Numbered from the stretch's first letter, positions 24,447 through 60,177 are shown. The stretch: 64,000 nucleotides of DNA from a virus (IMGVR_UViG_3300037264_006630:120944-184943), one strand, 5' to 3'. Translations and numbers: made by a program. The notes: generated by a model not told the origin, from the sequence alone.

Positions 24447-24475
24447 TGGCGCGGCTTTCCCGATTCCGGGTAGCT
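24447..24475 (+). promoter_or_regulatory. putative late promoter PL4, leaderless
   Basis: TGGCGC at 24447-24452, 17-bp spacer, GTAGCT at 24470-24475. The GTG start of the large adhesin follows after only 7 bases (24476-24482), so the mRNA would begin at or next to the start codon. Spacing and -10 match PL2 and PL3. Confidence 0.5.
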
Positions 24476-24482
24476 TCGGCGG

Positions 24483-26906
24483 GTGGTAATCCAGATCACC
24501 GGCGTGCTCGAGGACGGCGCCCCCGCCGCACAGTGGGTGCCGTTCGACGCGCGCGCGCCCATCGAGATCCCGTCCGGCATCACGACCACCATCGTCATGC
24601 GCCTGGTCACCCGCGCTGGCGTCGCCGTGCGACTGGCCAGCGGCGACCAGTTGCTCCTGACCGCCCGCGAGTCGACCATCCGGCCGTCGCGGCTCTACTT
24701 CACGGCATCCGCCGTGGCGGTCCCCGATCTCGGTCCGGGGATGTACCGGTTCACGATCCAGACCGACACCACCAAGTACCTGGGTGGCCTGAACGGCGTC
24801 TACGACGTGCGCTTGGTGCGGTCGGGCTACGCCGACTCAGTCATCCCGACCAGCGCCATCCGCTTCCCCGGGGTCGCGGCGGCGGCAGTTCCGGCACCGG
24901 CGGTGGGCCCGGTCATCCTCGATCTATCGCCGGCCGATCTGGGCCCGTCGGTCCAGTCGATCCCGACCACGATCGCCGCCGCCAACGCACTCAGCGGCGC
25001 CACGTTCACGGAGATCTGGAAGTGCAACGCCACGAGCGGCAACCTCGTCGGCGCGAACGGGGCCGTGCTCACGAGTGGGGGGAGCGCCGCCAATCGCTAC
25101 GCCAAGATGGTGCCAGCGTGGGACGGCACCGACTACACGAGCAGCTACCGCGCGATCGAATTCGCCGGCACCGACTCGACGGCGCAGAGCTTCGCTGCTT
25201 CCAGCGGTGCCGCCTACGGCCTCTCGCAGTCCGTGACGTGGGTGATGGCGGTCCGGCTTCCTCGAGCGCTCGGTGGTACGCGAGGGATCTTCGGGTGCAA
25301 GAGCTCGTCTGACGCGACCGGAGTCGGCTATTGTGCGCAGATGTCGTCGGGCGGCGCGCCGACGCTGGTGGTCTCCGACGGATCGACGTCGGCGACGGCG
25401 CAGACCGTCGGGGTCCTCACCGAGCAAGACGCGCTCGCCAACGGCTCCATCCAGTGGATGGCGTTCCAGATGAACCTGACCACTGGCCTCGCCACGGTCA
25501 TGGCCTATCGGGCCGTCGGCACGCCCGTCGTGATGCCAGCCGGAAGTAAAGTCGCAGCGACGGCGTGGCGCCTGGGCGGCCAGCCCTACCTCTTCTCTGG
25601 CGAGGGTCTCCAGGTGCTGTGGATGGGGGTCCTCCTCGGAACCAACGCCGAAGCCTTCACGCTCTCGATGTTGAACGCGATGGACAACGTGTGCCGCGCC
25701 CCGGCGGCTCTCGCTGGCCACGTCCGCTACTCCTGCCTTGCGCCGATCATCGGTAGCGACGCCACCGGCGTGCGGGTGCAGATGCTGGCTGGCTCGGCGG
25801 TGACGCCGAGCAAGATCGACTTCGCGCACGCCTACGCCGCCGCGGCGACCTCGCCCGGCAAGATCGGGATCCTCTGCGAGCGAGGCACCACCATCGCCGT
25901 CGACAACACGACGACGTTGCAGCGGCGCAACCGGCTGCTCAACAGCGACGACTTCGCCAACGCGAGTTGGGTGAAGACCAACGTCACGCCCGTTGCTCGA
26001 GCTGGCGAGGATCCGGCGGGCTTTCACGGTGCGGCGTCACTCACCGCGTCGGCAGGCAGCGGCACCGTGACGCAGAACTTCACGGGCACGGCCAGTGAGA
26101 CGCACACGAACAGCTTCTTCGGGCAGCGCAACCAGGGGACGGACGTCGCAGCTCGACTCTCGCTCTACGACGTCACCGGCGCGCCAGTCGAACTGGCCGG
26201 CGTCAACATCACGATCGGCGCGCTGCGTGAGCGGTTCGCGATCGAGGTGCCGGCGGCGACCATCGGCGCCGTGACCGCGCTCCAGTGGCGCCTCACGATC
26301 ACGACGAGCGGCCACTCCATCTTCGCGTGGGGCGGCCAGGCGCAGATGGGCTGGCTGGGCAGCTACCAGCCGCAGCGGGCCGCACTGATCAGCGCCGACG
26401 ACACCGAGTTCTACATCGACAACGCCGCCGGCCAAGCGTTCGATATCGTCGGTGGTCGCGTCGAGGTGACGTGTACCGGGCACCACGCCACCGTCGACAG
26501 CACCGGCTGCTACGTCTTCTCGACGAACACCGGCGCGGCGAATGAGGATCGGTTCGTCGTCCAGCGGGACGCCCTGCGCTCGACGTATCCGCACGACTCG
26601 CAGCACCGCAACGCCGCGGGGACTATCATCGCGCAGATCGCCCGGCCGACCGCGTTCCACACCGCCGAGATCACCTACGCGCACGAGTGGGACTCGCGCT
26701 TGCCGATCATCGGTGAGTCGGTCCGCGCGCTCGACGACGTGGGCGCCGTGCGCTACCGCAGCGACGCGGCGTCCGTGGTCCATGCAACTACGGCGTGGAC
26801 GACCGGGTCTGCGGCGGATCGACTGACGCTGGGGATGCGGCATAACAACGTGGCGCATCTCGAAGGAATCATCACGGCTGTGCGGACGTACGGGCGGGCG
26901 ACGTGA
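24483..26906 (+). CDS. large receptor-binding / adhesin protein with lectin-like domains
   Basis: 807 residues from GTG 24483. An Ig-like beta N-terminus (about 1-130) is followed by a concanavalin/LamG-like domain (about 160-405, with RAIEFAGTDSTAQSF and QWMAFQMNLTTG) and a carbohydrate-binding-like module (about 475-640, starting LLNSDDFANASWVKTNV, a form common in phage tail fibres). A final beta region covers residues 640-807. This is the best candidate for the receptor-binding protein. Two-domain lectin content is inferred by pattern only. Confidence 0.65.
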   Translation: MVIQITGVLEDGAPAAQWVPFDARAPIEIPSGITTTIVMRLVTRAGVAVRLASGDQLLLTARESTIRPSRLYFTASAVAVPDLGPGMYRFTIQTDTTKYLGGLNGVYDVRLVRSGYADSVIPTSAIRFPGVAAAAVPAPAVGPVILDLSPADLGPSVQSIPTTIAAANALSGATFTEIWKCNATSGNLVGANGAVLTSGGSAANRYAKMVPAWDGTDYTSSYRAIEFAGTDSTAQSFAASSGAAYGLSQSVTWVMAVRLPRALGGTRGIFGCKSSSDATGVGYCAQMSSGGAPTLVVSDGSTSATAQTVGVLTEQDALANGSIQWMAFQMNLTTGLATVMAYRAVGTPVVMPAGSKVAATAWRLGGQPYLFSGEGLQVLWMGVLLGTNAEAFTLSMLNAMDNVCRAPAALAGHVRYSCLAPIIGSDATGVRVQMLAGSAVTPSKIDFAHAYAAAATSPGKIGILCERGTTIAVDNTTTLQRRNRLLNSDDFANASWVKTNVTPVARAGEDPAGFHGAASLTASAGSGTVTQNFTGTASETHTNSFFGQRNQGTDVAARLSLYDVTGAPVELAGVNITIGALRERFAIEVPAATIGAVTALQWRLTITTSGHSIFAWGGQAQMGWLGSYQPQRAALISADDTEFYIDNAAGQAFDIVGGRVEVTCTGHHATVDSTGCYVFSTNTGAANEDRFVVQRDALRSTYPHDSQHRNAAGTIIAQIARPTAFHTAEITYAHEWDSRLPIIGESVRALDDVGAVRYRSDAASVVHATTAWTTGSAADRLTLGMRHNNVAHLEGIITAVRTYGRAT

Positions 26907-27364
26907 TGCAGCCCACCGCGACCACGGCCTCCACGGGTCAACCGGTCCCGTCGCAGCACATCGTCGACAACAACAGCATGGCGGTGACCGGCATGCTCAT
27001 CGGCGCGATCATCGCGCTGGCGGGCGCCATCGCGGTCCTGTGGCGTCGCAGCGAGCGCCGTGCCGAGCGCCAACTCAAGGTGGCCGAGGAGACCCGCGAA
27101 CGCGACGCCAAGGCGGCGGCCGAGGCGCTGGCGCGCGAGGTGGCCCGCACGAACGAACTCGCCAGGGAGCTCGCTGCCACCCGCAGGGAGTTCACGTTGG
27201 TCCTCGAGAAGCAGCGCGAAGACTTCGGGAAGATGCTGCACGACACCGTGACGCGGCAAGCCGAGGCCGACCGCACGCGGGACGCCACCATGGCCGACCT
27301 GGTCCAGCGTCTCTCGGTCGTCCTGGATGCTGCCCAACGGCGCATGGTACGAGTCAAGGGATGA
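26906..27364 (+). CDS. membrane-anchored coiled-coil protein
   Basis: 152 residues; the ATG at 26906 overlaps the adhesin stop (a GTG 3 bases earlier is possible). One transmembrane segment (about 26-46, MAVTGMLIGAIIALAGAIAV) is followed by about 95 residues of charged coiled coil. The topology would be N-terminus out or in with a long helical domain, like i-spanins or holin partners. It is the first gene of the lysis cassette and ATGA-coupled to the next. Confidence 0.65.
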   Translation: MQPTATTASTGQPVPSQHIVDNNSMAVTGMLIGAIIALAGAIAVLWRRSERRAERQLKVAEETRERDAKAAAEALAREVARTNELARELAATRREFTLVLEKQREDFGKMLHDTVTRQAEADRTRDATMADLVQRLSVVLDAAQRRMVRVKG

Positions 27365-27681
27365 TCACCCCCAAGCGACGACTGCCCACGGACCCGCGCG
27401 AACGATCCATCGAGCTCGTTCGCCGCTCGGCGTCATCCCCGCAGGTCCCGCCAACCGGGCTCCCGCCTGACCTCGACGAGATGGTCCGCAAGGGTGAGCG
27501 CGAGCGCGCCGTTCTCTACGCTCGCGTGGACGATGTGCTCGACCGCTGCGACCGACTCGCCGAGTCCATCTCCTCCTCCGGGATCGTGGTCGACCTCATC
27601 GACGGCGGCGACGACAACAGCCTGGCCCACTCCATCGAGGGCCTGCACGACGCGCAGGCCGAGCTCGCCATCCACCACTGA
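27361..27681 (+). CDS. hypothetical lysis-region protein
   Basis: 106 residues from the ATG at 27361, overlapping the previous stop as ATGA. The N-terminal 40 residues are basic and Pro-rich; a helix (DEMVRKGERERAVLYARVDD) and an acidic part (DLIDGGDDNS) follow. No membrane segment and no family recognised. Its role in the cassette is unknown. Confidence 0.6.
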   Translation: MITPKRRLPTDPRERSIELVRRSASSPQVPPTGLPPDLDEMVRKGERERAVLYARVDDVLDRCDRLAESISSSGIVVDLIDGGDDNSLAHSIEGLHDAQAELAIHH

Positions 27682-27695
27682 CCCTCCGAGGCCCC

Positions 27696-29305: not shown

Positions 29306-29309
29306 TCGG

Positions 29310-30333: not shown

Positions 30334-30334
30334 C

Positions 30335-32472: not shown

Positions 32473-32475
32473 GCG

Positions 32476-32547: not shown

Positions 32548-32603
32548 GAAGCCACTGCCGCGGGGGCGGTGGCTGTCTACTCGTTCCTCCAACGGGTCGC
32601 CGA

Positions 32604-33503
32604 CTACTCGGTGCGCTTCATGGCGGCCTCCTTGCTCTCGACGGCAGTGGCAAGGCGAACCCAGCCGGCACAGCGCGGCCCGCCGGTTGCCCAGCACAGG
32701 GCGATGTTGCTGCGCACGTCGTAGTCGTTGCCGAGCTTGCCGGCCGTGCCCTCGTCGAGCATCGCCTGGGTGATGAGCTTGCGGCGGCACTTCGGGCAGA
32801 CCGTGCCGGCGCGAGCGTGAACCTCGGCCTCGACCTCGGGGGCGCTGGCGCGGAAGTCGAGAAACGTGTCCCGCATGATCCCGGGCCCGGTCCAGGCGTC
32901 GGCCGCGGCCTGGAGCTTCCGATCGATGACCGCCAGCGCGGCCTCGGCGTCATCGAGCCGGGCGCGCAGGAAGGCCAACTCGTCCAGGCGAGCGGTCTCG
33001 CTGGGCGGACCGGAATCGATCGTCCCGGCACCGGGCAGCGGTTCGGCGCCCGCGATCTCGGCCTGGAGGGCAGCCTGCAACTCGGCCACCGGGTCGTGAA
33101 CCCCTGCGCTCCCGGACGTCGCGATGGCGAGCATGGCGAGCTCGTGGGCGCTGGGATCGTTCACGCCACCAACAGCGGCGACGATGACCTCGATGGCCTC
33201 GGCGCCGGCTGCCACGGCACTGGCGAGATGCCCCTCGGAGACGAGGGTGCCGCGCAGCGACCTCGCCAACGCGGCGGCGCGCGCTGTCGAGGTGAGGGGC
33301 TGGACGGTCCACGGCACGCCGTAGCCGGCCCTGTCGAAGAGATCCACCAGATGGTCGTTGATCTGCTCGGCCAGTCGCCGCAGGTGCTGCAACAGGATCG
33401 TCAGGCCCCGGTCCATCCGGGAGCCCGGGGCGATGCGACGCAGAGCCGGGGCGTCGCCCTCGAGCGCGAGGCGGACCATACCGCCGTCATCGACGTGTTT
33501 CAT
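32604..33503 (-). CDS. hypothetical protein with C-terminal zinc-finger-like region
   Basis: 299 residues. The ATG at 33503 is chosen because it lies 7 bases after the -10 box of a conserved leaderless promoter; the extra upstream codons fall inside the promoter. The helical body (about 30-200) has charged repeats (ELAFLRARLDDAEAALAV). The C-terminal part carries CPKC near 248, then C-W-A-T and a final Cys (CAGW), which may bind zinc. Function unknown. Confidence 0.65.
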   Translation of the reverse strand: MKHVDDGGMVRLALEGDAPALRRIAPGSRMDRGLTILLQHLRRLAEQINDHLVDLFDRAGYGVPWTVQPLTSTARAAALARSLRGTLVSEGHLASAVAAGAEAIEVIVAAVGGVNDPSAHELAMLAIATSGSAGVHDPVAELQAALQAEIAGAEPLPGAGTIDSGPPSETARLDELAFLRARLDDAEAALAVIDRKLQAAADAWTGPGIMRDTFLDFRASAPEVEAEVHARAGTVCPKCRRKLITQAMLDEGTAGKLGNDYDVRSNIALCWATGGPRCAGWVRLATAVESKEAAMKRTE

Positions 33504-33540
33504 GCGCCTGAACATACGCACGAACCACCAGCCCCGTCAA
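33504..33540 (-). promoter_or_regulatory. leftward leaderless early promoter PE-a
   Basis: Read on the minus strand: TTGACG (35-40 end of 335xx block, 33535-33540), an 18-bp spacer, TATGTT (33511-33516), then 7 bases (CAGGCGC) and the ATG. The block GTTCGTGCGTATGTTCAGG is shared almost exactly with PE-b and PE-c. Confidence 0.75.
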
Positions 33541-37320: not shown

Positions 37321-37543
37321 CCGGCGGCGGCGCGAGCTCGCCGGGCGCGAGCTCGCCGGGCGTGACCACCGACCACCGACCGCCGGTGCTCACGATCCGC
37401 CCGGCCTTGCGGAGCCGCAGAACGGTCCGGTCGTACCTGGGCATGCTGAGACCGGTCACTTCCTGGATCTTGGCCGCCTTGTCCGCACCGCCCGCGATGG
37501 CTTCGCAGACCAGATCCTCGTCCTCTTCGCTTCGCGTTTTCAT
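37310..37543 (-). CDS. winged-helix DNA-binding protein
   Basis: 77 residues from ATG 37543, which lies 7 bases after a conserved leaderless promoter. Residues about 15-60 show a winged helix: ADKAAKIQEVTGLSMPRYDR then TVLRLRKAGRIVSTGGRWSV. The C-terminus contains PGELAPGELAPP, encoded by a 15-bp tandem duplication (37332-37361). It is a likely early transcription regulator acting on the shared promoters, by inference. Confidence 0.65.
   Translation of the reverse strand: MKTRSEEDEDLVCEAIAGGADKAAKIQEVTGLSMPRYDRTVLRLRKAGRIVSTGGRWSVVTPGELAPGELAPPPDEG
37332..37361. repeat. 15-bp tandem duplication
   Basis: GCGAGCTCGCCGGGC occurs twice head to tail. Each copy contains the palindrome GCGAGCTCGC. 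It encodes the repeated PGELA of the winged-helix protein tail. Confidence 0.8.
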
Positions 37544-37579
37544 GCGCCTGAACGTACGCGCGAACCACGCAGTCGTCAA
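37544..37579 (-). promoter_or_regulatory. leftward leaderless early promoter PE-b
   Basis: Minus strand: TTGACG (37574-37579), 17-bp spacer, TACGTT (37551-37556), 7 bases (CAGGCGC), then the ATG at 37543. Nearly identical to PE-a over the -10 and downstream bases. Confidence 0.75.
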
Positions 37580-38592: not shown

Positions 38593-39962
38593 GGCGTGAC
38601 CTCGGACTGCGGCACGCCGTAGTTGCCCTCTTGGATGACGATGGCGCCGGGGTCGCGCCGCCCGGGGCGCTCGACCCAGACCCGACAGTCCATCTCCACG
38701 GCGAGTTGCCGCAGGAGGTCGATGCCCTCGTCCTCGTCGAGCCGCGAGCCGTCGCGGACCCACACGTCCCGGAGGCGCGGCGCCTGCCGCATGGCGATCG
38801 CGAGCGCGCACCGGAGCTGCTCGGCCTGCGAGGCGTTCGAGAACACGGCCCCGCCGAGCTTGAGGCCGTCCTCGGTGACCTCCAAGTCCGGCACCGGCAT
38901 CTCGGCGGCGGCGAGCTGCTCGGCCTTGCTCGCGTCGATGGCCTTGAGCCGCTCGGTGAGCCGCTCCTGCTCCACGGAGCGATCGCGGATCTCCGCTTCG
39001 GCGGCGGCGATCTGACGGTTGGTCGCCGCGGCGGTGGCCTGCCAGCGGCCGTAGTTCTCGCTACGGTTGGCCTCGGCCTGGAGCTCGCGGCGGCGCTCCT
39101 CGAACCCGGCGAACGTCTCCTCCGTCGGGACCTGCGCGGCGGCCTCGGCGACTGTGGCGACGCCGACCAAGCGCCGCTCCATGTTGGCGGCGAGGGTGGC
39201 GCGCGCCGCGACCAGCGCGGCCTCGAGCTTGGAGATCTCGGCGTGGTTGCCGTCGATGATCTGGTCGAGCGTGGCCAGCCGACCAGCCAAGGCGACGTGC
39301 TTGGCGCGCGCCTCGTCGGCGGCGCGGCGCTGGGCGGCCACCGCTTCGATCTCGGCGGTGATCTCCGAGATGCGCCGCGCATCCGCGGGCGACTCGGTCA
39401 TCGGGAAGATCTTGGCGCGGACGGCCTGGGCCTGCTTGAGCAGGCGACCCACGCCGGTGCGCTCGGCGAAGAGGCGGTCGCGCTCCTCGTCGAGGCCGGT
39501 CACGTCGATTCCGACCAGGGCCAGGAGGATGGCCCGCTGCTCCTTGGCCGGGCGCGAGATGAAGCCGATCGGATCGAGGAAGCGGCCGGACACCAGGGTG
39601 TCGAGCCACGCCTGGGGCGGGGTGATGCGCCCGTCCGGGCCGGTGATGGTGAGGGTGGTCTTGCCCTTGGTCGTCGCGGTGGTGGCGGTGATCGTCCGGC
39701 GGATCAGGTAGTCCCCGCCGTTCAGGTGGATCTCGACTTCGGCCTTGTCGGCGCCCCATCGGACCGCGTCGTCCGGGATGGCATCGGCGCCGAAGAAGGC
39801 GATGGACAGCGCGTCCATGAAGGACGACTTGCCGGCCTTGTTCTTCCCGGCGACCAGCAGGACGTGGGCGTCCGCGCCGGGCTCGATGTGGACGTGCGCG
39901 ATGCGCTTGACGTTGCGCACGTCGACCGCAGTGATCTCCAGACGCGACTCGCGTGTGTTCAT
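38589..39962 (-). CDS. SbcC/RecF-like ATPase
   Basis: 457 residues from ATG 39962, 7 bases after a leaderless promoter. The N-terminus has a RecF/SbcC-type start (ITAVDVRNVKRIAHVHI) and a Walker A GKNKAGKSSFMDALS (about 40-54). A coiled-coil middle (about 190-365) follows, and the C-terminal lobe has FSNASQAEQLRCALAIAM as a signature-like helix and RDGSRLDEDEG in place of Walker B/D-loop. It lacks a clear DE Walker B. In phages such proteins act with exonucleases in DNA end processing; no SbcD partner is seen here. Confidence 0.75.
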   Translation of the reverse strand: MNTRESRLEITAVDVRNVKRIAHVHIEPGADAHVLLVAGKNKAGKSSFMDALSIAFFGADAIPDDAVRWGADKAEVEIHLNGGDYLIRRTITATTATTKGKTTLTITGPDGRITPPQAWLDTLVSGRFLDPIGFISRPAKEQRAILLALVGIDVTGLDEERDRLFAERTGVGRLLKQAQAVRAKIFPMTESPADARRISEITAEIEAVAAQRRAADEARAKHVALAGRLATLDQIIDGNHAEISKLEAALVAARATLAANMERRLVGVATVAEAAAQVPTEETFAGFEERRRELQAEANRSENYGRWQATAAATNRQIAAAEAEIRDRSVEQERLTERLKAIDASKAEQLAAAEMPVPDLEVTEDGLKLGGAVFSNASQAEQLRCALAIAMRQAPRLRDVWVRDGSRLDEDEGIDLLRQLAVEMDCRVWVERPGRRDPGAIVIQEGNYGVPQSEVTP

Positions 39963-39999
39963 GCGCTTGAACATACGCACGAACGCCGTACCCCGTCAA
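39963..39999 (-). promoter_or_regulatory. leftward leaderless early promoter PE-c
   Basis: Minus strand: TTGACG (39994-39999), 18-bp spacer, TATGTT (39970-39975), 7 bases (CAAGCGC), then ATG 39962. Shares GTTCGTGCGTATGTTCA with PE-a. Confidence 0.75.
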
Positions 40000-44319: not shown

Positions 44320-45441
44320 TCACTTCTTCCATCGGGCGTGGGGAACGGTGAAGGTACGGCTGGCCTCGCCGAGGTGAGCGGCCTCGTGCCGCTCCCGCTC
44401 GACGGCATTCCAGCCGAGGGCTTGGTAGAGGACGTCGATGGCTTTGCGCCACGAGAGCTTGCCGGCGCGCGTGGCCCACGAGATCGGGCCGAGATGCGTC
44501 TCCGTGCGCTCGTGCTCTCCCATCGCGTCCTTGACGGTCTGGCTCAGGGCCTCGAGCCTGCGGTCCGCGTCCTTGCTGGCGAGCCAAGCGGACTTGAGGT
44601 CTCGCACGATCTCGTCGAGAGCCGGCGACGCCTTGACCACCGAGCCGCCGATCGAGGTCTTGTACTTGCGCCGGAGGTGGCGGTTCCACCCCTCGCTTCC
44701 GTCGGGGCTGGGCTCGATGCCTTTCAGGATGTGCTTGGCCCAGAAGTCCTCACCGATGGTGAGGAGGTCGGCCACGAAGTCCTGGTTGATGGTCCAGGTC
44801 CAGTTGCGGCGGACGTGGGTGTCCATGAGGGCCGCGAGGCTGGCGTGCTTGATTGACCACAGGTCGCCGTACCAACTCGCCTGGATGACCATGCTGGGCG
44901 GCACCGGCTCATCGGCGTCGGGCTCGCGCGAGTAGACCATCGAGCCGTGGTAGCCGTGGGTCTTCACCTCGACGACCCGTGCCCACCAGTCGTGGATGCC
45001 GGGCGGCGTAAACTGGAGGAAGGCGTTGCAGTCGGGGATGTACAGCTCGTCGACCGTCGGGATCTCGAGCCCATCGGCCGACCCGCGCTGCCACTCACGA
45101 CCCTTGCGGCAGACCAGCGGCGGACGCCAGACGGTGACCGGGCCGCCGGGGCGGGGCCAGAACTCCCCGCCCTTGATGTAGAGGTCGCCGAGGATGCGGG
45201 GCTCGAGGTACTGCCCCATCCACAGCCGGTCGGTGTTGTCGCGGCGCGTCTCGGCCCACTCCGGCCGGACGATCGAGTCGTAGACCTCGATGGCGTTCTT
45301 GAACGGGTTCTCGTTGCAGATGGCGCTCATGTCCGATCCGCCGAGCCCGCCCTGCCGTCCTACCAACCACTTCGATCGGTCGGCTTGGTCCGCGATCCAA
45401 ATGAGATCCTCGGCCGCTTTCCGGGCCTGCGCTGCGTCCAT
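44320..45441 (-). CDS. YqaJ-like viral recombinase exonuclease
   Basis: 373 residues from ATG 45441, which sits 7 bases after the -10 box of the divergent leftward promoter. N-terminal GGLGGSDMSAICNENPF (about 29-45) and GQYLEPRILGDLYIKG, then VVEVKTHGY (about 160-168) with the acidic-Lys catalytic signature, and QASWYGDLW, typical of YqaJ/lambda exonuclease PD-(D/E)XK nucleases. It would resect double-strand ends to load the annealing protein. It is the first gene of the leftward unit. Confidence 0.85.
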   Translation of the reverse strand: MDAAQARKAAEDLIWIADQADRSKWLVGRQGGLGGSDMSAICNENPFKNAIEVYDSIVRPEWAETRRDNTDRLWMGQYLEPRILGDLYIKGGEFWPRPGGPVTVWRPPLVCRKGREWQRGSADGLEIPTVDELYIPDCNAFLQFTPPGIHDWWARVVEVKTHGYHGSMVYSREPDADEPVPPSMVIQASWYGDLWSIKHASLAALMDTHVRRNWTWTINQDFVADLLTIGEDFWAKHILKGIEPSPDGSEGWNRHLRRKYKTSIGGSVVKASPALDEIVRDLKSAWLASKDADRRLEALSQTVKDAMGEHERTETHLGPISWATRAGKLSWRKAIDVLYQALGWNAVERERHEAAHLGEASRTFTVPHARWKK

Positions 45442-45448
45442 AAAATTA

Positions 45449-45478
45449 TCCCTACCACGCGCCTCTGACGCCTGTCCA
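45449..45478 (-). promoter_or_regulatory. leftward divergent promoter (exonuclease), leaderless
   Basis: Minus strand: TGGACA (45473-45478), 18-bp spacer, TAGGGA (45449-45454), then 7 bases (TAATTTT) and ATG 45441. It is back-to-back with a rightward promoter, with one inverted-repeat operator between them. Confidence 0.65.
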
Positions 45479-45481
45479 CGG

Positions 45482-45506: not shown

Positions 45507-45535
45507 TTGCCGTGATTGGGCTCGGCCGATAGGGT
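45507..45535 (+). promoter_or_regulatory. rightward divergent early promoter, leaderless
   Basis: TTGCCG (45507-45512), 17-bp spacer, TAGGGT (45530-45535). The GTG start of the first rightward gene follows after 6 bases. Confidence 0.65.
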
Positions 45536-45541
45536 CCCCTC

Positions 45542-45925
45542 GTGACCGAAGCCGCTGGCATGCTTGGTGATCCGCAGCCGGAGGTGCGGCGCATCGGGCG
45601 ACCCGCCGAGCGGGAGATCCCACGAACCCACCTGCACGACTGGATGGGGAGCCAGAAGATCTCGAGCCAAGCCTTCCACCAGAAGTGCGCGGACATCGCC
45701 GTCTCGCGGAAGATCTCGGTGGAGTTCGTCCCCACGAAGAGCTCGGTCGATGACATGAAGGTGGCCCGGTTCTACCCCTCTCTCGTGGTCGCGTATCTCA
45801 TCGAGATTGCGACCGGCGGCGACATCGGGTTGAAGCAGTGGGCGGACGACATCAAGCGGCACGGGACCCGGCACGGCAAGCGGCATACCAGCCGGGCCAG
45901 CACGCGCGCCGGAAGCACGGCGTAA
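45542..45925 (+). CDS. hypothetical early protein
   Basis: 127 residues from GTG 45542, 6 bases after the -10 box. The middle is alpha/beta with HLHDWMGSQKISSQAFHQKC and a helix (YPSLVVAYLIEIATGGDIG); the C-terminal 25 residues are basic and His-rich (RHGTRHGKRHTSRASTRAG). As the first gene of the rightward operon it may be a regulator. No family is recognised. Confidence 0.65.
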   Translation: MTEAAGMLGDPQPEVRRIGRPAEREIPRTHLHDWMGSQKISSQAFHQKCADIAVSRKISVEFVPTKSSVDDMKVARFYPSLVVAYLIEIATGGDIGLKQWADDIKRHGTRHGKRHTSRASTRAGSTA

Positions 45926-49979: not shown

Positions 49980-50644
49980 TGTTCGAGTTCGTCGTCCAGG
50001 GCGATCCGGTCCCGCAGGGATCGATGACCGCCATCCCGTTCCACATGCCGTGTCCGCAGTGCGCCGAGAAGAAGCGCTACTGCGGCAGGGCGAAGATCTG
50101 CATCCTGCCCGCGGGCGAGGTGCTGGGACGGCAACTCCGCGCGAACATCATCCACGACAACTCCGGCGAGTTGAAGACGTGGCGCTCGATGATCGCCCTG
50201 GAGGCGAAGCTCGCGTTCAACCGGGCCGGGATGATGGCGCGCCCCGTCTTCCCGGAGGGCACCGGCGTCGTGGTGGGGTGCGTGTTTTTCCTCAAGCGCC
50301 CACAAGGTCACCTGACCTCGAAGGGCGTGCTCTCGGCGGATGGCTTGCGCAACCCGACGCCGTGCAAGAAGCCGGACGCCGACAAGCTACTCCGCGGCGC
50401 GGTCGATGCGATGAGCGCTTCTACGAGTGCCGACATCGGCGGCGAGATCTATCACGACGACAACCAAGTCCTGTCGCCGTGGCCGTGGAAGACCTGGGCG
50501 CCGCTCACCGCGCGCACCGGCCACACCGTCATCGTCATCGAGCGCGCCGACCCGTCCGACATCGCTGCCATCGCGAAGGTCAGCGCGCGCCTCATCGAGA
50601 TCGTCCGCGCGTCGCGGCCGTCCACCGGGGAGCTGTTCGGATGA
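49979..50644 (+). CDS. RusA-like Holliday junction resolvase
   Basis: 221 residues from ATG 49979. N-terminal VQGDPVPQGSM, the PCKKPDADKLLRGAVDAM stretch and the YHDDNQV motif provide the Asp residues conserved in RusA (catalytic metal site). The family works as a dimer that cuts four-way junctions made during phage recombination. An insert with CPQC and further Cys (about 24-40) is extra and may bind zinc. Confidence 0.8.
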   Translation: MFEFVVQGDPVPQGSMTAIPFHMPCPQCAEKKRYCGRAKICILPAGEVLGRQLRANIIHDNSGELKTWRSMIALEAKLAFNRAGMMARPVFPEGTGVVVGCVFFLKRPQGHLTSKGVLSADGLRNPTPCKKPDADKLLRGAVDAMSASTSADIGGEIYHDDNQVLSPWPWKTWAPLTARTGHTVIVIERADPSDIAAIAKVSARLIEIVRASRPSTGELFG

Positions 50645-51282
50645 CCCGGAAGTTGCGCGTCCGCGGCGGCGTCATCGACACCCTGGGCAACCTCGGCGAG
50701 AACCTCGAGATGGTTGGCGCCGCCATCGCCGTGGTGATCTTGAGCCCGAAGATCCGGCGCGACTGCAAGGACATGCCGCGGCCGTGCTGGAAGGTCGGAT
50801 GCCGTTCGAACATGATCCTCGACGTGACCGAGAACGGCGCCATCATGCTCAACAGCGGGCTGTCCGACGACGACCGCGGCGAGGGCGCCGCGCGCATCCT
50901 GGGCGACGACGTGTCCGACGAGGAGTTCTACGCGCAGGTCGATCAGGTGCTCGACTGGTGGGTGTACCGCACCGACAAGGCCCGCCGCCTCGGCACCCGC
51001 CAGCCGCAGTCCTGTCTGGAGGACGTGATCGACGCGATGCAGGGCGATGAGATGCTGCTCGAGGACGTGGGCGCGGTCATGCACATCACGCGCGAGCGGG
51101 CGCGGCAGATCGAAGAAGCCGCCCTCCTCGCACTCACGAAGTCCGGAGACCGCATCAAGAAGCTCCTGGGTGGCAGCTTCGCGCGTCGGCTGTTCCACCG
51201 CCTCACCTCCCCGCAGGTTCTGCCTCAGGGGCCGCCCGTTCCGCTCGTCAAGATCCGCCGCCGCAAGGAGCCCACCGCATGA
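50641..51282 (+). CDS. sigma-70 region-4-like DNA-binding protein
   Basis: 213 residues, ATGA-coupled to RusA. A central Cys segment (PRPCWKVGCRSNMILDV) precedes a helix-turn-helix (about 145-170, LLEDVGAVMHITRERARQIE) that matches the sigma-70 region 4 recognition motif (VTRERIRQIE in sigma70). No region 2 is present, so it cannot be a full sigma factor; it may steer host RNA polymerase to the phage early or late promoters. Similar Cys-plus-region-4 proteins occur in Myxococcota, as I recall. Confidence 0.7.
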   Translation: MTRKLRVRGGVIDTLGNLGENLEMVGAAIAVVILSPKIRRDCKDMPRPCWKVGCRSNMILDVTENGAIMLNSGLSDDDRGEGAARILGDDVSDEEFYAQVDQVLDWWVYRTDKARRLGTRQPQSCLEDVIDAMQGDEMLLEDVGAVMHITRERARQIEEAALLALTKSGDRIKKLLGGSFARRLFHRLTSPQVLPQGPPVPLVKIRRRKEPTA

Positions 51283-52065: not shown

Positions 52066-52096
52066 TTGACGACGCACGATCGATCGTGCGTATGGT
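52066..52096 (+). promoter_or_regulatory. leaderless promoter with 20-bp palindrome in spacer
   Basis: TTGACG (52066-52071), 19-bp spacer, TATGGT (52091-52096). The spacer is filled by a perfect palindrome ACGCACGATCGATCGTGCGT (52072-52091) that overlaps the first base of the -10 box. The methyltransferase ATG at 52104 follows after 7 bases. A repressor bound here would block the polymerase directly. Confidence 0.75.
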
Positions 52097-52103
52097 GACG
52101 AGT

Positions 52104-54161
52104 ATGAAAGCACGCAGTACCAAGGGGAGAGCTCGCCCGGTGGCGCGAGCACGAGGGCGAGCAGCCAACCAGCTCGAGTTCCCCACGCAGGGCGCTGGCC
52201 GTGCGCCGGTTGTGCGTGCCTTTTTCAACAACGACCACATCGTGGCCGACAACTTCTGCGGCGGCGGTGGCGCCAGCCTGGGCATCGAGATGGCGCTGGG
52301 GCGTTCACCCGATGTCGCGGTGAACCACGACGCCGAGGCGATCGCGATGCACGCGGTGAACCACCCGTTCACCAAGCACTACACCGAGAGCGTCTGGAAG
52401 ATCGACCCGAGGAAGGTGTGCGGCAAGCGGAGGGTGGCTCTTTGTTGGTTGAGCCCCGACTGCTCGTCGCACTCCAACGCCAAGGGCGGCGAGCCTCGCG
52501 ATCAGAAGAAGCGATGCCTCGCCTGGATCGCGGTGACGTGGGCGCACCGCGTGAAGCCGGATGTCTTTGCCCTCGAGAACATCGTCGAGTGGTTGAAGTG
52601 GGGCCCGCTCCATCGTGAGCACACCGACGCGACCTGCCTCGGGCGAGAGTGCAGAACCCACAAGGGGAAGAAGATCGACGTGGCGGACTGCAACCGCTGC
52701 AAGGGCGAAGGTTGCTGCAAGCGGATCTGTCGACGGAACAAGCCCATCCTCGCCCGCGAGGGGGAGACGTTCCGCGCCTGGAAGCAGAAGCTCGAGAGCC
52801 TGGGCTACGTCGTCGAGTGGCGGGTCCTGCGTGCCTGCGACTACGGCGCGCCGACCAAGCGCCGCCGACTATTCCTCGTCGCCCGTCGTGACGGACAGCC
52901 GATCGTCTGGCCGGAACCGACGCATGGGCCGCGCCAACTCGCAGACCAACCCCCGAGCGCCGCCGCGCCGCTCAAGCCCTACCGCACCACGGCCGAATGC
53001 GTGGACTGGTCACGGCACTGCCCGAGCATCTTCGACCGGGATAACCCGCTAGCCGACAAGACGCTGGCGCGCATCGCACGCGGGATCCACAAGTTCGTGC
53101 TCACAGCGAAGCGGCCGTTCGTCGTGCCGGTCAACCACGCGGGCGGTCACGGTCGCGTCCACAGCATCGACGAGCCCATGCCGACGATCACGGCGCAGTG
53201 CCGCGGATCGCACGCTCTGGTGGTGCCGACCATCGTGCGCACCGCGCACGGCGACGTGACTCAGGAGGGCAAGAAGCGCGGCCAGTCGTCGCACAGCATC
53301 GAGGAGCCGCTCCCCACCATCACCGCGGGTGGTCGCGACTTCGCTCTGGTGTCGCCGGTCATCATCAAGGCCAAGACCCACGGCGGTGGCGGGAACGACG
53401 CCAAGAGCGCGGACGAACCGCTCGGGACGATCACCACGTCCAAGCGAGGCGAGTTCGCGGTCGCGGTGCCCTACCTCATCCACAAGTCGAACGGCGAGCG
53501 CGTTGGCCAAGCGCCGCGCATCTACGACCCGCAGGAGCCCCTTGGCACCATCGTGGCGCAGGGGAACAAGCACGCCGCCGTGTTGGCGTTCCTGGCCAAG
53601 CACTTCGGCGGCGGCTACACCGGAGCTGGTTCATCCTGCGACGAGCCCCTCGGCGCCATCACGACGATCGATCACCACGCGCTGGTGGCGGCCCACGTCG
53701 TGAAGTTCCAAGGTACCAGCGACACGCATCTGACCTCGTGCTCTTCGAGTATGGACGAGCCAGCACCGTCCATCACCGCGCAGGGGATGAAGCTCGCGCA
53801 GGTCGCGGCGTTCCTGGTCAGGTACAACGGCACCGGCGATGCCGAGCCCGTGAACGAACCGGTGGGTGCGCTCACTGCGAAGCCGCGCTTCGGCTTGGTC
53901 ACGGTGACGATCGACGGCGAAGAGTACGTCATCGTCGACATAGGCATGCGCATGCTCGAGCCTGACGAGCTCTACAAGGCGCAGGGATTTCCTCCAGAAT
54001 ACAACATCGCTCCCGTCGTTGAGCGGCGGATGGCCAACGGGAAGATGAAGCGCGCGCCGCTGACCAAGACGGCGCAGATCCGCATGTGCGGCAACTCGGT
54101 GTCCCCGCCGGTCGCCGCCGCCGTCATCCGCGCCAACCTGCCGGTGAGACTCGCCGCGTGA
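52104..54161 (+). CDS. C5-cytosine DNA methyltransferase with repeated recognition region
   Basis: 685 residues. The ATG at 52104 matches the leaderless promoter; earlier GTG/ATG codons lie inside the promoter. Motif I ADNFCGGGGAS (48-58), catalytic motif IV CWLSPDCSS with Cys120, motif VI ALENIVEW, motif VIII-like RRRLFLVARR, and motifs IX-X KAQGFPPEY and CGNSVSPPVA near the end. Between VIII and IX lie seven repeats of a DEPLxTITA type (about 350-595), far longer than a usual target recognition domain. An insert with eight Cys (about 175-215) is also present. It may protect the phage DNA from several restriction systems. Confidence 0.85.
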   Translation: MKARSTKGRARPVARARGRAANQLEFPTQGAGRAPVVRAFFNNDHIVADNFCGGGGASLGIEMALGRSPDVAVNHDAEAIAMHAVNHPFTKHYTESVWKIDPRKVCGKRRVALCWLSPDCSSHSNAKGGEPRDQKKRCLAWIAVTWAHRVKPDVFALENIVEWLKWGPLHREHTDATCLGRECRTHKGKKIDVADCNRCKGEGCCKRICRRNKPILAREGETFRAWKQKLESLGYVVEWRVLRACDYGAPTKRRRLFLVARRDGQPIVWPEPTHGPRQLADQPPSAAAPLKPYRTTAECVDWSRHCPSIFDRDNPLADKTLARIARGIHKFVLTAKRPFVVPVNHAGGHGRVHSIDEPMPTITAQCRGSHALVVPTIVRTAHGDVTQEGKKRGQSSHSIEEPLPTITAGGRDFALVSPVIIKAKTHGGGGNDAKSADEPLGTITTSKRGEFAVAVPYLIHKSNGERVGQAPRIYDPQEPLGTIVAQGNKHAAVLAFLAKHFGGGYTGAGSSCDEPLGAITTIDHHALVAAHVVKFQGTSDTHLTSCSSSMDEPAPSITAQGMKLAQVAAFLVRYNGTGDAEPVNEPVGALTAKPRFGLVTVTIDGEEYVIVDIGMRMLEPDELYKAQGFPPEYNIAPVVERRMANGKMKRAPLTKTAQIRMCGNSVSPPVAAAVIRANLPVRLAA

Positions 54162-54298: not shown

Positions 54299-54837
54299 AG
54301 CGAACCGCCTTGAAACGTACCGCGTTGAAACGTACTGCGTGGAAGCGCGAGGGGTCGAAGCTCGCACCGGGCGGCGGGCTCAAGCGCAGCCCCATGAAGC
54401 GCGGCAAGGGCAACGGGTTCTCCACGTTCAAGACGACCCCTCGCGAGTACAAGGACCGTCTCCAGGCGAGGCGCGAGGCCAAGGGGCTGGCCGACGAGCC
54501 GTACCTCGAGTGGCTGCGCAAGCAGGTCTGCGGGCTGGCGGCCTGGGCGCTGTTGCAGTGGCAACTACACCGGGTCGTCATCGACATCGGGCCCTGCGGT
54601 GGCCGCATCGATCCAGACCACGAGCGCCACAACGTCGGCATGGGACAGACCGCGCCGGACGCCAGGGCGTGGAGTATTTGCAGGTGGCATCACGACGGTC
54701 GGCACGGCGACGCCAAGGGCTTCTGGGGCAGCATGACCGGCGCCGAGATCGTCGAGTTTATTGCCGAGCGCATCGACGAACACCGCGCCCGCTACCTGGC
54801 CGAGCTCGCCGCAGGCGGGCCCAACGGAGGCATGTGA
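54295..54837 (+). CDS. HNH-like nuclease with basic repeat tail
   Basis: 180 residues. The N-terminus is three near-identical KRTAxKR repeats encoded by 15-bp tandem copies (54298-54342). A C-terminal core has CGGRIDPDHERHN, then ICRWHHDGRHGD, a Cys/His HNH-type arrangement seen in phage proteins such as DUF968/Ref-like nucleases. The role is inferred as recombination-associated nuclease. GTGA-coupled to the SNF2 helicase. Confidence 0.65.
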   Translation: MKRTALKRTALKRTAWKREGSKLAPGGGLKRSPMKRGKGNGFSTFKTTPREYKDRLQARREAKGLADEPYLEWLRKQVCGLAAWALLQWQLHRVVIDIGPCGGRIDPDHERHNVGMGQTAPDARAWSICRWHHDGRHGDAKGFWGSMTGAEIVEFIAERIDEHRARYLAELAAGGPNGGM

Positions 54838-57800
54838 AGACCTACGGCACGGTGAAGTACAAGTCGGACCCGGGCGCGCGGCTCGGCTACTTCCACATCG
54901 TCTGCGAGCCCCACGTGGCGATGGTGCTGCGCCGCATCTTCGACGGTTCCAAGCGCGGCCGGGACAACGCGGTGGTGGTCTCCGGGACCGACGCCAACTG
55001 CCACACCCTCGAATGGGCGCTCATCAAGTACCCGATGGAGGTCGACACCCCGGTGTTGAAGCGCGGCGCCGATCGCCAGCGCCAGCGGATGGCGATGGTA
55101 GAAGAGGCGCGGTCGCCGGACTACGTGCCGCCGGTCTTCGACCTCGCGATCCCCTTGCGCGACTACCAGCGGGTGGCCGCCGACCTCGCGATCCGGTCCC
55201 GGGGGCTGCTTCTCGGAGACGACGTCGGCCTGGGCAAGGCCCAACCGATCGACGCGCTGGTCCTCACGCCGACGGGGTGGCGGGCCATTGGCGATCTCCG
55301 GGTTGGAGATCGGGTTGTCGACCCTGACGGTGGAGAAGCTGCGGTCACCGGCGTCTTCCCGCAGGGCGAGCGACAGGTCTACCGGGTAACGATCAAGGAT
55401 GGGACTTCGGCCGAGTCCTGCGAGGCGCATCTCTGGGGGGTCTATACCGCCAACGATCGCACCCGCGGTGGGTCGATGCGTGTGCTCGAGCTCAAGCAGA
55501 TCATGGGCGACTTGCGAGGCAAGGAGTGGAAGGGGTGGGCATCGAGCAAATGGTTCCTGCCGCTACCGGAACCGATTGTGTTCGATGCCGCTGGTGAGCG
55601 TCCGGTCGACCCGTACTTGCTCGGCGTCTTGATTGGCGACGGAGGGCTCTCGGGCGGCGCTGTAAACCTGATGAGCCCCGATGTGGAGATCGTTTCTCGC
55701 GTACGCGCCACCATTCCGGCTGGCACGACACTGATTGCTTGCGACGGACGTGAAGGGCACTACCGGGTGTCAAGGGGTAAGCCTGGTGGTGAGAATCCGC
55801 TGATGAACGCGCTACGCGACCTTGATCTGATGGGAAAGCTCTCGGTCGAGAAGCGAATCCCGGTTGCTTACCTGCGTGCGCCGGTTGCCGAACGTCTCGA
55901 GCTGCTACGCGGCCTCATGGATACCGACGGAGACTGCACGAAGCTCGGCGCCTGCATGTTCAACACGTCGTCGCCTGGGCTACGCGATGATGTGGTCGAT
56001 CTGGTCCGTGGGTTGGGGGGGATCGCCAGCATCTACGACCGGCCGGAGCCGAAGTTCACGCACAAGGGGGAGACGCGCATCGGGCAGCCAGCCTACCGCG
56101 TGAACGTGCGCCTGGCGGTCAACCCGTTTCACCTGATCAAGAAGGCGGAGCGCTGGCACAGGCCCAACATGGCACGAGCGATCCATTCGGTGGAGCCGAC
56201 CCGTCGAGTGGAGACGGTCTGCATCCGCGTCGCGAGCAAGCGCCATCTCTACATCACCGACGGTCACATCGTCACGCACAACACCGCTGAGTGCATCGCT
56301 ACCTTCGTGGTGCCCGACACGCTGCCGGCGATCGTCGTCACCCTGACGCACCTGACCGGGCAGTGGCAGCGCGAGGTCAACCGCTTCGCCCCGGCGCTTC
56401 GCGTCCACGTCATTCAACGAGTTCAAGCCTACCCGCTCGTCGACAACTACGGCTGGGAGGTCCACAAGGGCAAGCGTCGCTACGTGCGCAGCGGCATCGC
56501 CAAGATGCCCGACGTGATCATCCTCTCCTACAGCAAGCTCGTCGGCTGGGCCGACATGTTGATCAGTATCAACCCCGGGATGCTGGTCTTCGACGAGTGC
56601 CAGGAGCTTCGCACTGGTGCGACCGACGGCGGGTCAACGCACGGCTCGAAGAAGAACGACGCAGCCAAGGCGATTGCCTTCCGATCGCGTTATCGGGTCG
56701 GCGCCTCGGTGGGGCCGGACAGCATCATCGAGCTGCGCGGGAGCCTCTTCGGGGCCGGATGGGTCGGCCGGATGGAAGACGCGGTCACCATGGTCGCATC
56801 TGTCGTCGGTGCGCAGCGGCTTGCCGAGAGCGATTTCCGCGACGTGGCGATCCTCGGGATCGAGTCCCGGGGGTGGACGGGCAATGGCTTCGGGTGGAAG
56901 CGCGTCAGGAAGTTCATCGTCCACGAGTGCAACGAGCCCGTTCGGACGCTGCGCATCGCTGGGGATGGGCTCCTTCTGACCGATGATCACGACGTGTTCG
57001 TGGCGCGGCGCCAGGGTCGCCGGGACTACCACCCGGAGGTCATCACGCCGATCGCACAGGTTCCGGCCAAGAGCATCAACAAGGGCGACATTGTCCCGGT
57101 GGACGACGGAGCCGCGTGGGGCGGCAACACCGAACGGCTCATCGACACGGCGTCCATCCTCACCCATCTTGGTTGGGCGCAGGTCCCCGTCTACTTGGGC
57201 GGTTTGGATCGGCACATCCTGGGGGTGAAGCAGTACGAGTGGGCGAACTACAGGAAGCAGGGCACGTTCGGGCACTACCTGCCGGTGAGGCTCTACTTGC
57301 AACACCGCCACCGTCTGCCGGTTCCGCCGTTCATCTACCTCTCGAAATGCAAGCGGATCACCAAGATCGCGATGACGATCCGCTTGAGCGATTGGGCCTA
57401 CGTGCTGGGCTTCTTCCTCGGTGACGGGTGGCTCGATAAGGACACGACTCGCGTTTCTTTTGCGGTTGAGCTTTCGCGGAAGGACGACTTCATCGCGCGT
57501 CTACGGTTGCTGCCCGGCATCGACCTGGACCCCAAAGTCCGCGTGATGCCAGGAAAGTCAGTCGAGATACGGGTGTCGAACGTCCTGTTCGCCAGCGTGC
57601 TGCGGCACGCGATGGGTAAGCACCTCTGCCACGAGAAGACGATCCCTGGTGAGTGGATCGTGAGTTGGCCGGAGTCCGCGCGTCGCGAGTTGCTCCGAGG
57701 AATGCTCGAGTCCGACGGGCATGTTTCCGCGCGCGCAAACCGGCGTTGGTACGCTACGTCTTCGCAGAAGATGGCGCGGGCGATGCTGTCGCTCCTTCGG

Positions 57801-59048
57801 AGTCTAGGCATCATCGGTGGCATCGGAACGCGGAAGCCAGCGGCCGGCGGGGTGATACGCGGGCGGCAGATCGTGGGGAAGCGCACCGGCTACATGGTGC
57901 ATTGGTCAGCGTTCGCCGAAGCCGGCGACAACACCGGGTACAGAGGAGCACGCCGCGCCCTTCCCGGCACCGAGGGTCGCTTCAACGAGGGAGTGGTCCG
58001 CGGTGTCGAGTCGGCGCCAGTGCCAGCGCTGGTCTACGATCTCGAGATGGACGGGCACCCGTCGTTCGTCGCCAACGGCGCGTTGGTCCATAACAGCGCG
58101 ACCCCGATTTTCAATCTTGGCGGCGAGGTCTGGAACGTGATGGACGTGCTGTCGCCGGGCCTGCTCGGCGACAAGCAGGAGTTCTACACCGAGTGGTGTA
58201 CGCCGCAGGGCAACGGCAAGTACCTCGTCAACGACATCAACGCGCTGCGCGTCTATCTGACCGGCGAGGGCGCGATGCTGCGCCGCCGCCGCAAGGACGT
58301 GGGCCGCGAGTTGCCGCCCATGATGCGCAACTGGCAGACGGTCGAGCTCAACCGCAAGGGCCTCGACTCGATCAGCAGTCACGTCGCCGAGCTGGCGCGC
58401 GCGGTGCTCCGCGACGACATCGCTCCCTTCGCCAAGATGCAGGCGGCTGGCGAGCTCGACCGCCAACTCCGACAGGCCACCGGCGTGGCGAAGATCCCAA
58501 GCGTGCTGGCGTTCGTCGAGATGCTCATCCACGGCGCCGACGAGCCCGAGTTCGAGTCGGTCGTGGTCTTCGCTCACCACCACCTCGTCTTCGATGCGCT
58601 GCTCGAGGGCCTGACCAAGGCCGGCATCAAGGCGGCCAAGTTCACCGGCAAGCAGTCGAAGAAGGAGAAGGACGAGGCGCTTGACCGGTTCACCAACGGC
58701 GACCTCCAGGTCCTGCTCCTGGCCAACCGCGCCGGCGTCGGCATCGACGGCCTCCAGGCGGTGTGCAGCGTCGGCGTGGTCGCCGAGCTCGACTGGTCGC
58801 CGGGCGTTCACCTCCAGAACGAGGGTCGGCTCAACCGCGACGGCCAGGAGGAGAACGTCGTCTTCTACTACCTCGTCTCCGATGAGGGCAGCGATCCGGT
58901 GGTGCGCGACGTGCTGGGCATCAAGGAGAGCCAGCGCCACGGCCTGGTCGATGGCGACCTGGGCGACACCAGCGACGAGCCGCCGGTGGACCTGAACCGC
59001 ATGCGGAAGATGGCGCAAGCCTACCTCGACAAGCACAAGGTGAAGTGA
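54834..59048 (+). CDS. SNF2-like helicase with two inteins
   Basis: 1404 residues from GTG 54834, GTGA-coupled. With inteins removed (348 and 463 residues) the mature protein is 593 residues. Motif Q/I GDDVGLGK-T (split by intein 1), motif Ia VVTLTHLTGQ, motif II VFDECQEL, motif III GA-SATPIF (split by intein 2), motif V ANRAGVGID and motif VI NEGRLNRDGQ are all visible, so the ATPase core is intact only after splicing. It may remodel protein-DNA complexes during replication. Ends by TGATG overlap with the next gene. Confidence 0.9.
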   Translation: MKTYGTVKYKSDPGARLGYFHIVCEPHVAMVLRRIFDGSKRGRDNAVVVSGTDANCHTLEWALIKYPMEVDTPVLKRGADRQRQRMAMVEEARSPDYVPPVFDLAIPLRDYQRVAADLAIRSRGLLLGDDVGLGKAQPIDALVLTPTGWRAIGDLRVGDRVVDPDGGEAAVTGVFPQGERQVYRVTIKDGTSAESCEAHLWGVYTANDRTRGGSMRVLELKQIMGDLRGKEWKGWASSKWFLPLPEPIVFDAAGERPVDPYLLGVLIGDGGLSGGAVNLMSPDVEIVSRVRATIPAGTTLIACDGREGHYRVSRGKPGGENPLMNALRDLDLMGKLSVEKRIPVAYLRAPVAERLELLRGLMDTDGDCTKLGACMFNTSSPGLRDDVVDLVRGLGGIASIYDRPEPKFTHKGETRIGQPAYRVNVRLAVNPFHLIKKAERWHRPNMARAIHSVEPTRRVETVCIRVASKRHLYITDGHIVTHNTAECIATFVVPDTLPAIVVTLTHLTGQWQREVNRFAPALRVHVIQRVQAYPLVDNYGWEVHKGKRRYVRSGIAKMPDVIILSYSKLVGWADMLISINPGMLVFDECQELRTGATDGGSTHGSKKNDAAKAIAFRSRYRVGASVGPDSIIELRGSLFGAGWVGRMEDAVTMVASVVGAQRLAESDFRDVAILGIESRGWTGNGFGWKRVRKFIVHECNEPVRTLRIAGDGLLLTDDHDVFVARRQGRRDYHPEVITPIAQVPAKSINKGDIVPVDDGAAWGGNTERLIDTASILTHLGWAQVPVYLGGLDRHILGVKQYEWANYRKQGTFGHYLPVRLYLQHRHRLPVPPFIYLSKCKRITKIAMTIRLSDWAYVLGFFLGDGWLDKDTTRVSFAVELSRKDDFIARLRLLPGIDLDPKVRVMPGKSVEIRVSNVLFASVLRHAMGKHLCHEKTIPGEWIVSWPESARRELLRGMLESDGHVSARANRRWYATSSQKMARAMLSLLRSLGIIGGIGTRKPAAGGVIRGRQIVGKRTGYMVHWSAFAEAGDNTGYRGARRALPGTEGRFNEGVVRGVESAPVPALVYDLEMDGHPSFVANGALVHNSATPIFNLGGEVWNVMDVLSPGLLGDKQEFYTEWCTPQGNGKYLVNDINALRVYLTGEGAMLRRRRKDVGRELPPMMRNWQTVELNRKGLDSISSHVAELARAVLRDDIAPFAKMQAAGELDRQLRQATGVAKIPSVLAFVEMLIHGADEPEFESVVVFAHHHLVFDALLEGLTKAGIKAAKFTGKQSKKEKDEALDRFTNGDLQVLLLANRAGVGIDGLQAVCSVGVVAELDWSPGVHLQNEGRLNRDGQEENVVFYYLVSDEGSDPVVRDVLGIKESQRHGLVDGDLGDTSDEPPVDLNRMRKMAQAYLDKHKVK
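55239..56282 (+). mobile_element. intein 1 in SNF2 P-loop, LAGLIDADG type, Ala1
   Basis: 348 residues (136-483), inserted between Lys and Thr of the Walker A motif. It starts with Ala (AQPIDALVLTPTGWRAIG), ends with VTHN and is followed by Thr as +1 residue. Starting with Ala instead of Cys/Ser makes it an Ala1-type intein that must skip the first acyl shift. A homing endonuclease is present: YLLGVLIGDGGLS and LLRGLMDTDGDC are the two LAGLIDADG motifs. Splicing block F/G RHLYITDGHIVTHN is intact. Confidence 0.85.
56706..58094 (+). mobile_element. intein 2 in SNF2 motif III, LAGLIDADG type, Ser1
   Basis: 463 residues (625-1087), between Ala and Ser of the SATP motif. Starts SVGPDSIIELRGS, ends ALVHN, +1 Ser. 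Two LAGLIDADG motifs, AYVLGFFLGDGWLD and LLRGMLESDGHVS, frame the endonuclease domain. Terminal block DLEMDGHPSFVANGALVHN is intact, so it should splice. Confidence 0.85.
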
Positions 59049-59728: not shown

Positions 59729-59731
59729 GCC

Positions 59732-59761
59732 TTGACGACTTTCGGGCAGCGCCCGTAATGT
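59732..59761 (+). promoter_or_regulatory. leaderless promoter with operator O3 in spacer
   Basis: TTGACG (59732-59737), 18-bp spacer, TAATGT (59756-59761). The operator TTTCGGGCAGCGCCCGT (59740-59756) fills the spacer, so bound repressor would directly occlude the promoter. The next gene's ATG at 59770 follows after 8 bases. Confidence 0.7.
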
Positions 59762-59769
59762 GGCCGCAG

Positions 59770-60177
59770 ATGAACAGCCCCCTCGTGCCCCCGTCCCGTG
59801 AACAGATCGCCGCCACCGAGGCGACGGCCGCCATCCACAAGAAGGGCTTCCCGCCCGGCACGACGCAGCGGGTGAAGCGGACCCTCCACGAGAAGGCGCG
59901 GCGCGCGGCGGTCCGGCGGCTGGCCCCGAGCTTCCGGCACGGCTCGCGTCTCCAGCCCTTCGTCTACAACGAGGACAAGTCCAACTGGCGCGACCACGCG
60001 CGCCTGGCCCCTGCTATGATCGGCGAGGTGCGCGGCTTCGATCTCGACGGCAATCCGCGCATCACCTACCGCCTCAACCCGGCGTGTAGCGGGCCGCCGC
60101 TGGGGCCGTCCGCGCTCATCACGCTCGCCACCAAGAAGGCGCGGGCGCGACAGACCCACCCCGGGAAGCGCTCGTGA
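59770..60177 (+). CDS. hypothetical protein
   Basis: 135 residues; the ATG at 59770 is 8 bases past the -10 box, while the earlier in-frame ATG at 59758 overlaps the promoter. Basic N-terminal half with a helix (KRTLHEKARRAAVRRLA); the C-terminal half is beta-rich (EVRGFDLDGNPRITYRL) and may bind nucleic acid. Unknown family. Its 3' end overlaps the DnaN region. Confidence 0.6.
   Translation: MNSPLVPPSREQIAATEATAAIHKKGFPPGTTQRVKRTLHEKARRAAVRRLAPSFRHGSRLQPFVYNEDKSNWRDHARLAPAMIGEVRGFDLDGNPRITYRLNPACSGPPLGPSALITLATKKARARQTHPGKRS

Follow-up and report, generated by a model that had tools for sequence, protein, structure and literature searches.

The window analysed here, 64,000 nucleotides long, spans 120944-184943 in a virus record of 184,943 bp; sites outside the window are given in record coordinates. 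We read the remaining record in stretches and called genes by codon usage, which yielded 280 genes with approximate start positions and 90% coding over the whole record. A near-identity search of phage records returned no near relative. In the window, an SNF2-type helicase gene (54834-59048, plus strand) also matches LAGLIDADG and intein-splicing domains and probably contains an intein. Elsewhere, a gene of 286 aa (record 13567-14427, plus strand; L008:13567-14427) matches a release-factor (PCRF) domain, with no GGQ motif seen. A TnpB-like (OrfB_IS605) gene (record 50001-51137, plus strand; L010:10001-11137) shows atypical codon usage, and the genomes that match it best over its full length are actinobacterial, at only ~32%.

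Several genes in the window are preceded by a promoter whose -10 box lies directly before the start codon. An earlier note on this DNA had listed eight sites where the -10 ends 6-8 bases before the start; we find five of them solid. At four of the five, TTGACG, a 17-19-bp spacer and TANNNT are followed by an ATG exactly 7 nt after the -10. On the minus strand these are ATG 33503 (-10 TATGTT 33511-33516, -35 TTGACG 33535-33540; gene 32604-33503, 299 aa), ATG 37543 (TACGTT 37551-37556, TTGACG 37574-37579; gene 37310-37543, 77 aa) and ATG 39962 (TATGTT 39970-39975, TTGACG 39994-39999), which opens an AAA ATPase gene of 457 aa (38589-39962). On the plus strand, ATG 52104 (TATGGT 52091-52096, TTGACG 52066-52071) opens a C5 DNA methylase gene (52104-54161). 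A dyad covers both the -10 box and the ATG at each of the four: TTCGTGCG-N10-CGCATGAA at 33499..33524, and the same class 1 dyad at 37539..37564 and 39958..39983 (all minus strand) and, with one mismatch, at 52083..52108 (plus strand). The fifth site, ATG 59770 (plus strand; gene 59770-60177, 135 aa), has a leaderless-type promoter without the dyad (59732..59772), in which TTGACG (59732-59737), N18 and TAATGT (59756-59761) are followed by an 8-nt gap.

Two further sites of the eight are plausible. The candidate TGGACA-N18-TAGGGA-N7-ATG 45441 (45439..45480, minus strand) is weak, as its -10 has no final T and a second TA-rich box lies nearer the ATG; its gene (44320-45441) is YqaJ-like, followed by a weak RecT match. 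The candidate TTGCCG-N17-TAGGGT-N6-GTG 45542 (45507..45544, plus strand) uses a GTG, with the in-frame ATG 45560 as an alternative start. We did not accept TAGCTT-N6-GTG 24483 (24471..24485, plus strand), which has only TGGCGC as its -35 and lies within a run of structural genes. As to the suggestion that methylation and recombination genes are both leaderless, the methylase gene carries a strong box and the recombination operon (45441) a weak one.

The eight sites had captured part of a real, larger pattern. Across the whole record we curated 24 ATG sites of class 1, with the pattern TTGAC-N16/19-TANNNT-N7-ATG. TTGAC is exact at 20 sites and inexact at 4, the -10 is a strict TANNNT at 18 and deviates at 6, and the gap to the ATG is 7 nt at 23, site 59770 having 8. 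A called gene opens at the ATG in 20 class 1 sites; at site 55552, recognised later than the others, the ATG under an exact dyad shares its reading frame with a called gene. The record holds 17 strict TTGAC/TANNNT promoters, 15 of which have an ATG 7-8 nt downstream, one an ACG, and one is unrelated. With a relaxed -35, an ATG stands at 5-8 nt in 19 of 35 promoters, as against 1 of 24-29 in shuffles. A weight matrix of the -10 block, built with the ATG columns omitted, finds 59 matches of at least 8 bits on both strands and 2-5 per shuffled strand, by which we reject chance as the source of the class 1 pattern. In control phages, a start falls 5-9 nt after a promoter-like site in 3 of 57 cases (NootNoot) and 0 of 1 (lambda); no promoter-like sites were found in Kromp. 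Codons 2-6 of class 1 genes consist of 35% A, 35% C and 6% T. Such A-/C-rich early codons fit reported leaderless enhancers, and we do not count them as evidence because they overlap the operator.

The class 1 dyad belongs to a 26-bp palindrome, TTCRYRCR-N10-YGYRYGAA, which has 30 exact copies in the whole record; at all other half-site spacings from 2 to 24 taken together, there is 1. Whereas the 17-bp repeats of Cluster O and the L5-type stoperators are off-promoter sites, each of the 30 exact dyads accompanies a class 1 or class 2 start, always at one or the other of two fixed distances; one of these starts is an ACG. In class 1 the dyad is centred at -8.5 and extends from the -10 box to codon 2, and in class 2 its centre lies -41.5 to -43.5 from the ATG. 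Most of the 38 promoters share this candidate operator, placed as for a repressor in one class and as for an activator in the other, and one regulator could therefore control the whole leaderless set. The sites that the earlier note had treated as independent promoters are better described as copies of one element with an operator. The right half-dyad reads YGYATGAA in class 1 and CGCACGAA, CGCGCGAA or CGCGTGAA in class 2. The class 1 ATG is kept at some cost to dyad symmetry; the class 2 halves have no ATG, and therefore the operator does not need one.

Class 2 follows the pattern GGC(A/C)C-N6-TGC-N13/14-ATG and has no TTGAC. Its 14 starts lie between 72 and 115 kb, none of them in the window. 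The generic pattern has 17 matches on both strands and 0-3 per shuffled strand, and 12 of the 14 starts carry the dyad with 0-1 mismatch. The class 2 -10 is weak: a TA stands ~11 nt before the ATG in most sites, and the -10-to-ATG gap is less well defined, at ~5-7 nt. All 14 sites contain GG-N10-GC, with TGC followed by A or T, and base -1 is C at every one; mycobacteria likewise favour C ahead of the transcription start (PMC4633059). Genes of recognised type include PAPS reductase. We notice a further dyad, AGTGTCGTC-N3-GACGACACT, at -87 to -91 in about half of class 2 (for example at record 98977 and 103044), which may be an enhancer, a terminator or a second regulator site. Whether the promoter is read as class-II-activated sigma-70 or as sigma-54-like, class 2 transcription would start at the ATG or within ~2 nt of it.

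A tail sheath protein search of viral contigs revealed five relatives at 45-64% identity, and searches of the same contigs with the capsid, terminase and DnaB proteins returned no relative. The dyad is absent from all five tail-sheath relatives. Four of them (G001, G002, G004 and G005) carry 17 TTGAC-like/TANNNT-N5-8-ATG sites, compared with ~1 leaderless-type site per shuffled genome and at most 3 in one G004 shuffle. The claim that leaderless mRNAs are predicted from most readable promoters is borne out across the record and in 4 of 5 distant relatives. One repeated promoter family is particular to G002 and another to G004, and G005 retains CGTGCGTAT at the -10. That the leaderless spacing persists in genomes without the operator sequence is an argument against its being set by the operator alone. 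In viral contigs the class 1 block has 5 matches, all without promoter context, and the class 2 element has none; class 1 with TTGAC has 0 matches in 84,980 genomes.

The translation signals agree with these spacings. SD-like pairing (-6 kcal/mol or better) occurs at 2 of 38 class 1 and 2 starts, compared with 138 of 246 other genes (p=6e-10), and ATG is the start at 38 of 38 as against 138 of 246 (56%). At record 5749, 71398 and 119697, the class 1 ATG opens an ORF of 8, 10 and 7 codons, respectively, whose stop has a 4-nt overlap with the next start. Leaderless mini-ORFs of mycobacteria have been described with the same kind of coupled tetramer (PMC4633059). The conserved ATG, opening called genes or such coupled mini-ORFs, thus appears to be used as a start. 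Natural controls come from members without it. After the ACG copy of class 1 (record 23531) come GGAG and, at 23625, an ATG that opens 175 codons, with an SD of -5.9. In relative G004, two members of the promoter family without ATG have leaders of 42 and 58 nt and SD values of -7.4 and -8.3, whereas the leaderless-type members in relatives pair at +0.6 to -3.7, except for the G004 start 70990 at -6.3. The depletion of SD sites, the coupled mini-ORFs, the ATG kept against symmetry and the SD-bearing leadered members add to the case made earlier from -10 spacing. Leaderless transcription is well supported as a prediction: judging from the sequence, about 38 transcripts would start at or within 1-2 bases of the start codon.

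As for the host, class 1 boxes resemble the TANNNT and NTGACC of S. coelicolor (PMC4895711), but matches to TnpB, DUF5131 and capsid are ambiguous between Actinobacteria and Alphaproteobacteria. How unusual the arrangement is, as the earlier note had called it, depends on the host, since in Actinobacteria leaderless expression is predicted for more than 20% of genes (PMC3160421). The record encodes an initiator-type tRNA-Met (record 61399-61472, plus strand; L011:1399-1472) with a GGG/CCC anticodon stem, C33 in place of U33 and no encoded CCA. Relatives G001 and G002 also have one (L118:8131-8205 and L124:6648-6725, minus strand). Similar sequences occur in 259 of 50,697 phage records (~0.5%), uncommon and not unique. 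Next to a tRNA-Ser, a tRNA-Sec-like match (L011:188-272, minus strand) scores 40.5 bits, where Rfam sets its cut-off at 47. Raised initiator tRNA is reported to enhance leaderless translation strongly and canonical translation only mildly (PMC9031893). The phage tRNA might raise fMet-tRNA and so give leaderless mRNAs a selective advantage over SD-led mRNAs of the host; one regulator, with the start codon in its operator, would meanwhile switch all leaderless units from class 1 to class 2. We offer this link as an idea, not a result, and a rather doubtful one. Since leaderless promoters and initiator tRNA co-occur and the latter is reported to favour leaderless translation, translational takeover by the phage is directly testable.

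We think it fairly probable that the record carries a genome-wide leaderless set whose two classes are served by one dimeric dual regulator. The host housekeeping sigma factor would read TTGAC and TANNNT of class 1, and transcription would begin at the A of the ATG, the 8th base after the -10. An mRNA with that 5' end has no ribosome-binding site, and 70S ribosomes would presumably initiate at the 5' AUG. TTCRYRCR-N10-YGYRYGAA would be the binding site of a dimeric regulator, probably encoded by the phage; at class 1 the regulator would cover the -10 and the start codon and repress, and near -42 at class 2, which has no -35 box, it would allow class-II activation of leaderless or near-leaderless mRNAs. 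One regulator with these two opposite effects, such as lambda CI has at OR, is our best, tentative reading, and the GGCAC/TGC element and the -89 dyad of class 2, which one activator leaves unexplained, speak against it. Contrary to the leaderless part are the in-frame GTG or ATG codons upstream within many class 1 elements, the departures from TANNNT and TTGAC counted above, the weak class 2 -10 and the SD-like pairing at the G004 start 70990. Candidate regulators are a 96-aa LuxR/GerE protein (record 67889-68179) and a protein with a Sigma70_r4-type HTH (window 50641-51279). The LuxR/GerE gene directly follows a 483-aa gene whose N-terminus resembles a GHKL-type ATPase (together record 67889-69685, minus strand), and the two form a candidate regulator pair. 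The class 1 units may be early; PHROGs named few of the first genes of units, so this label rests on a few DNA-metabolism genes.

The spacing evidence also bears on readings in which the ATG or the dyad has another role. If the promoters were real and the conserved ATG only part of the operator, transcripts could begin further upstream and translation could use the in-frame starts found within many class 1 elements, such as GTG at -18 or ATG at -12. However, the sites do not all share any one upstream start, and 49042 has none; at four class 2 sites an in-frame stop lies within the 45 nt upstream, which leaves no other possible start. The operator does not need an ATG, as the class 2 right halves indicate, and the elements' starts are not preceded by an SD, so we regard this reading as quite improbable. 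A dispersed repeat that lies near starts by chance, with no promoter role, would account for an element that is repeated and found in no other collection searched. This explanation we reject, and hold to be hardly credible, because all 30 exact copies keep two fixed offsets from starts; relatives, moreover, share the geometry without the repeat.

Two other readings accept leaderless mRNAs and differ in what controls them. Class 2 might be of sigma-54 type, with the -89 dyad as its enhancer and the shared dyad only repressing or modulating; the invariant GG-N10-GC, the A or T after TGC and the position of the second dyad in about half of the sites fit this. Against it, no sigma-54 activator domain is among the Pfam families listed (in one list, the best 25 of 35), and the class 2 element also closely resembles a repeated regulator half-site (GCACG/CGTGC). 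The host may moreover be an actinobacterium, and to our knowledge rpoN is not known from that group. We consider this unlikely. Alternatively, the dyad protein could be a prophage repressor under which, in lysogens, the lytic genes of class 1 stay silent and class 2 stays on, instead of an early-to-later switch during infection. Lambda CI represses PR and activates PRM at OR, and its own mRNA is leaderless; the operator logic here would be the same, and a ParB-like protein is encoded. Yet no integrase or repressor is among the Pfam families listed (again the best 25 of 35 in one list), and recognised class 2 genes such as PAPS reductase do not decide the matter. This we judge improbable.

If the favoured reading with one dual regulator is true, leaderless initiation would be more than an oddity confined to repressor genes: it would be this phage's main expression strategy, with a single element combining promoter, operator and start codon. 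Leaderless phage genes are already known; what appears new from the sequence is a set that spans the genome and has its start codons within the operator. In the open-licence literature we found no precedent for the scale, the shared operator or the start codon within it. The closest cellular counterpart is the TA-led genes of Actinobacteria (PMC3160421, PMC4633059, PMC4895711), which share a -10 directly before an RTG start and the lack of an SD. Actinobacterial leaderless genes also share with the phage the preference for AUG, the C at -1 and coupled mini-ORFs. In the phage, by contrast, one element is repeated, its shared operator includes the start codon, and every start is AUG. Among phages, PY54 makes leaderless cI and cro mRNAs, as determined by RACE (PMC4488713). 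Like lambda cI from PRM, these are leaderless mRNAs from phage regulatory promoters, but they concern 1-2 repressor genes, whereas the present phage has ~38 starts genome-wide, including DNA-metabolism genes. Cluster O mycobacteriophages have predicted SigA-like promoters (PL1, PR2 and PL2) whose +1 is the first base of the start codon (PMC4351075) and, as here, many dyad copies across the genome; there, however, only these three such promoters are described and the 17-bp dyads are mostly off-promoter, whereas here all exact dyads are at promoters. The proposed regulator, repressing class 1 and activating class 2, would resemble p4 of phi29, a single phage protein with opposite effects on early promoters (repression) and a late one (activation) (PMC3100819). 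In phi29 this happens at one promoter cluster, together with p6, whereas the present phage would apply such control, by a regulator that is only proposed, to ~24 and 14 dispersed promoters.
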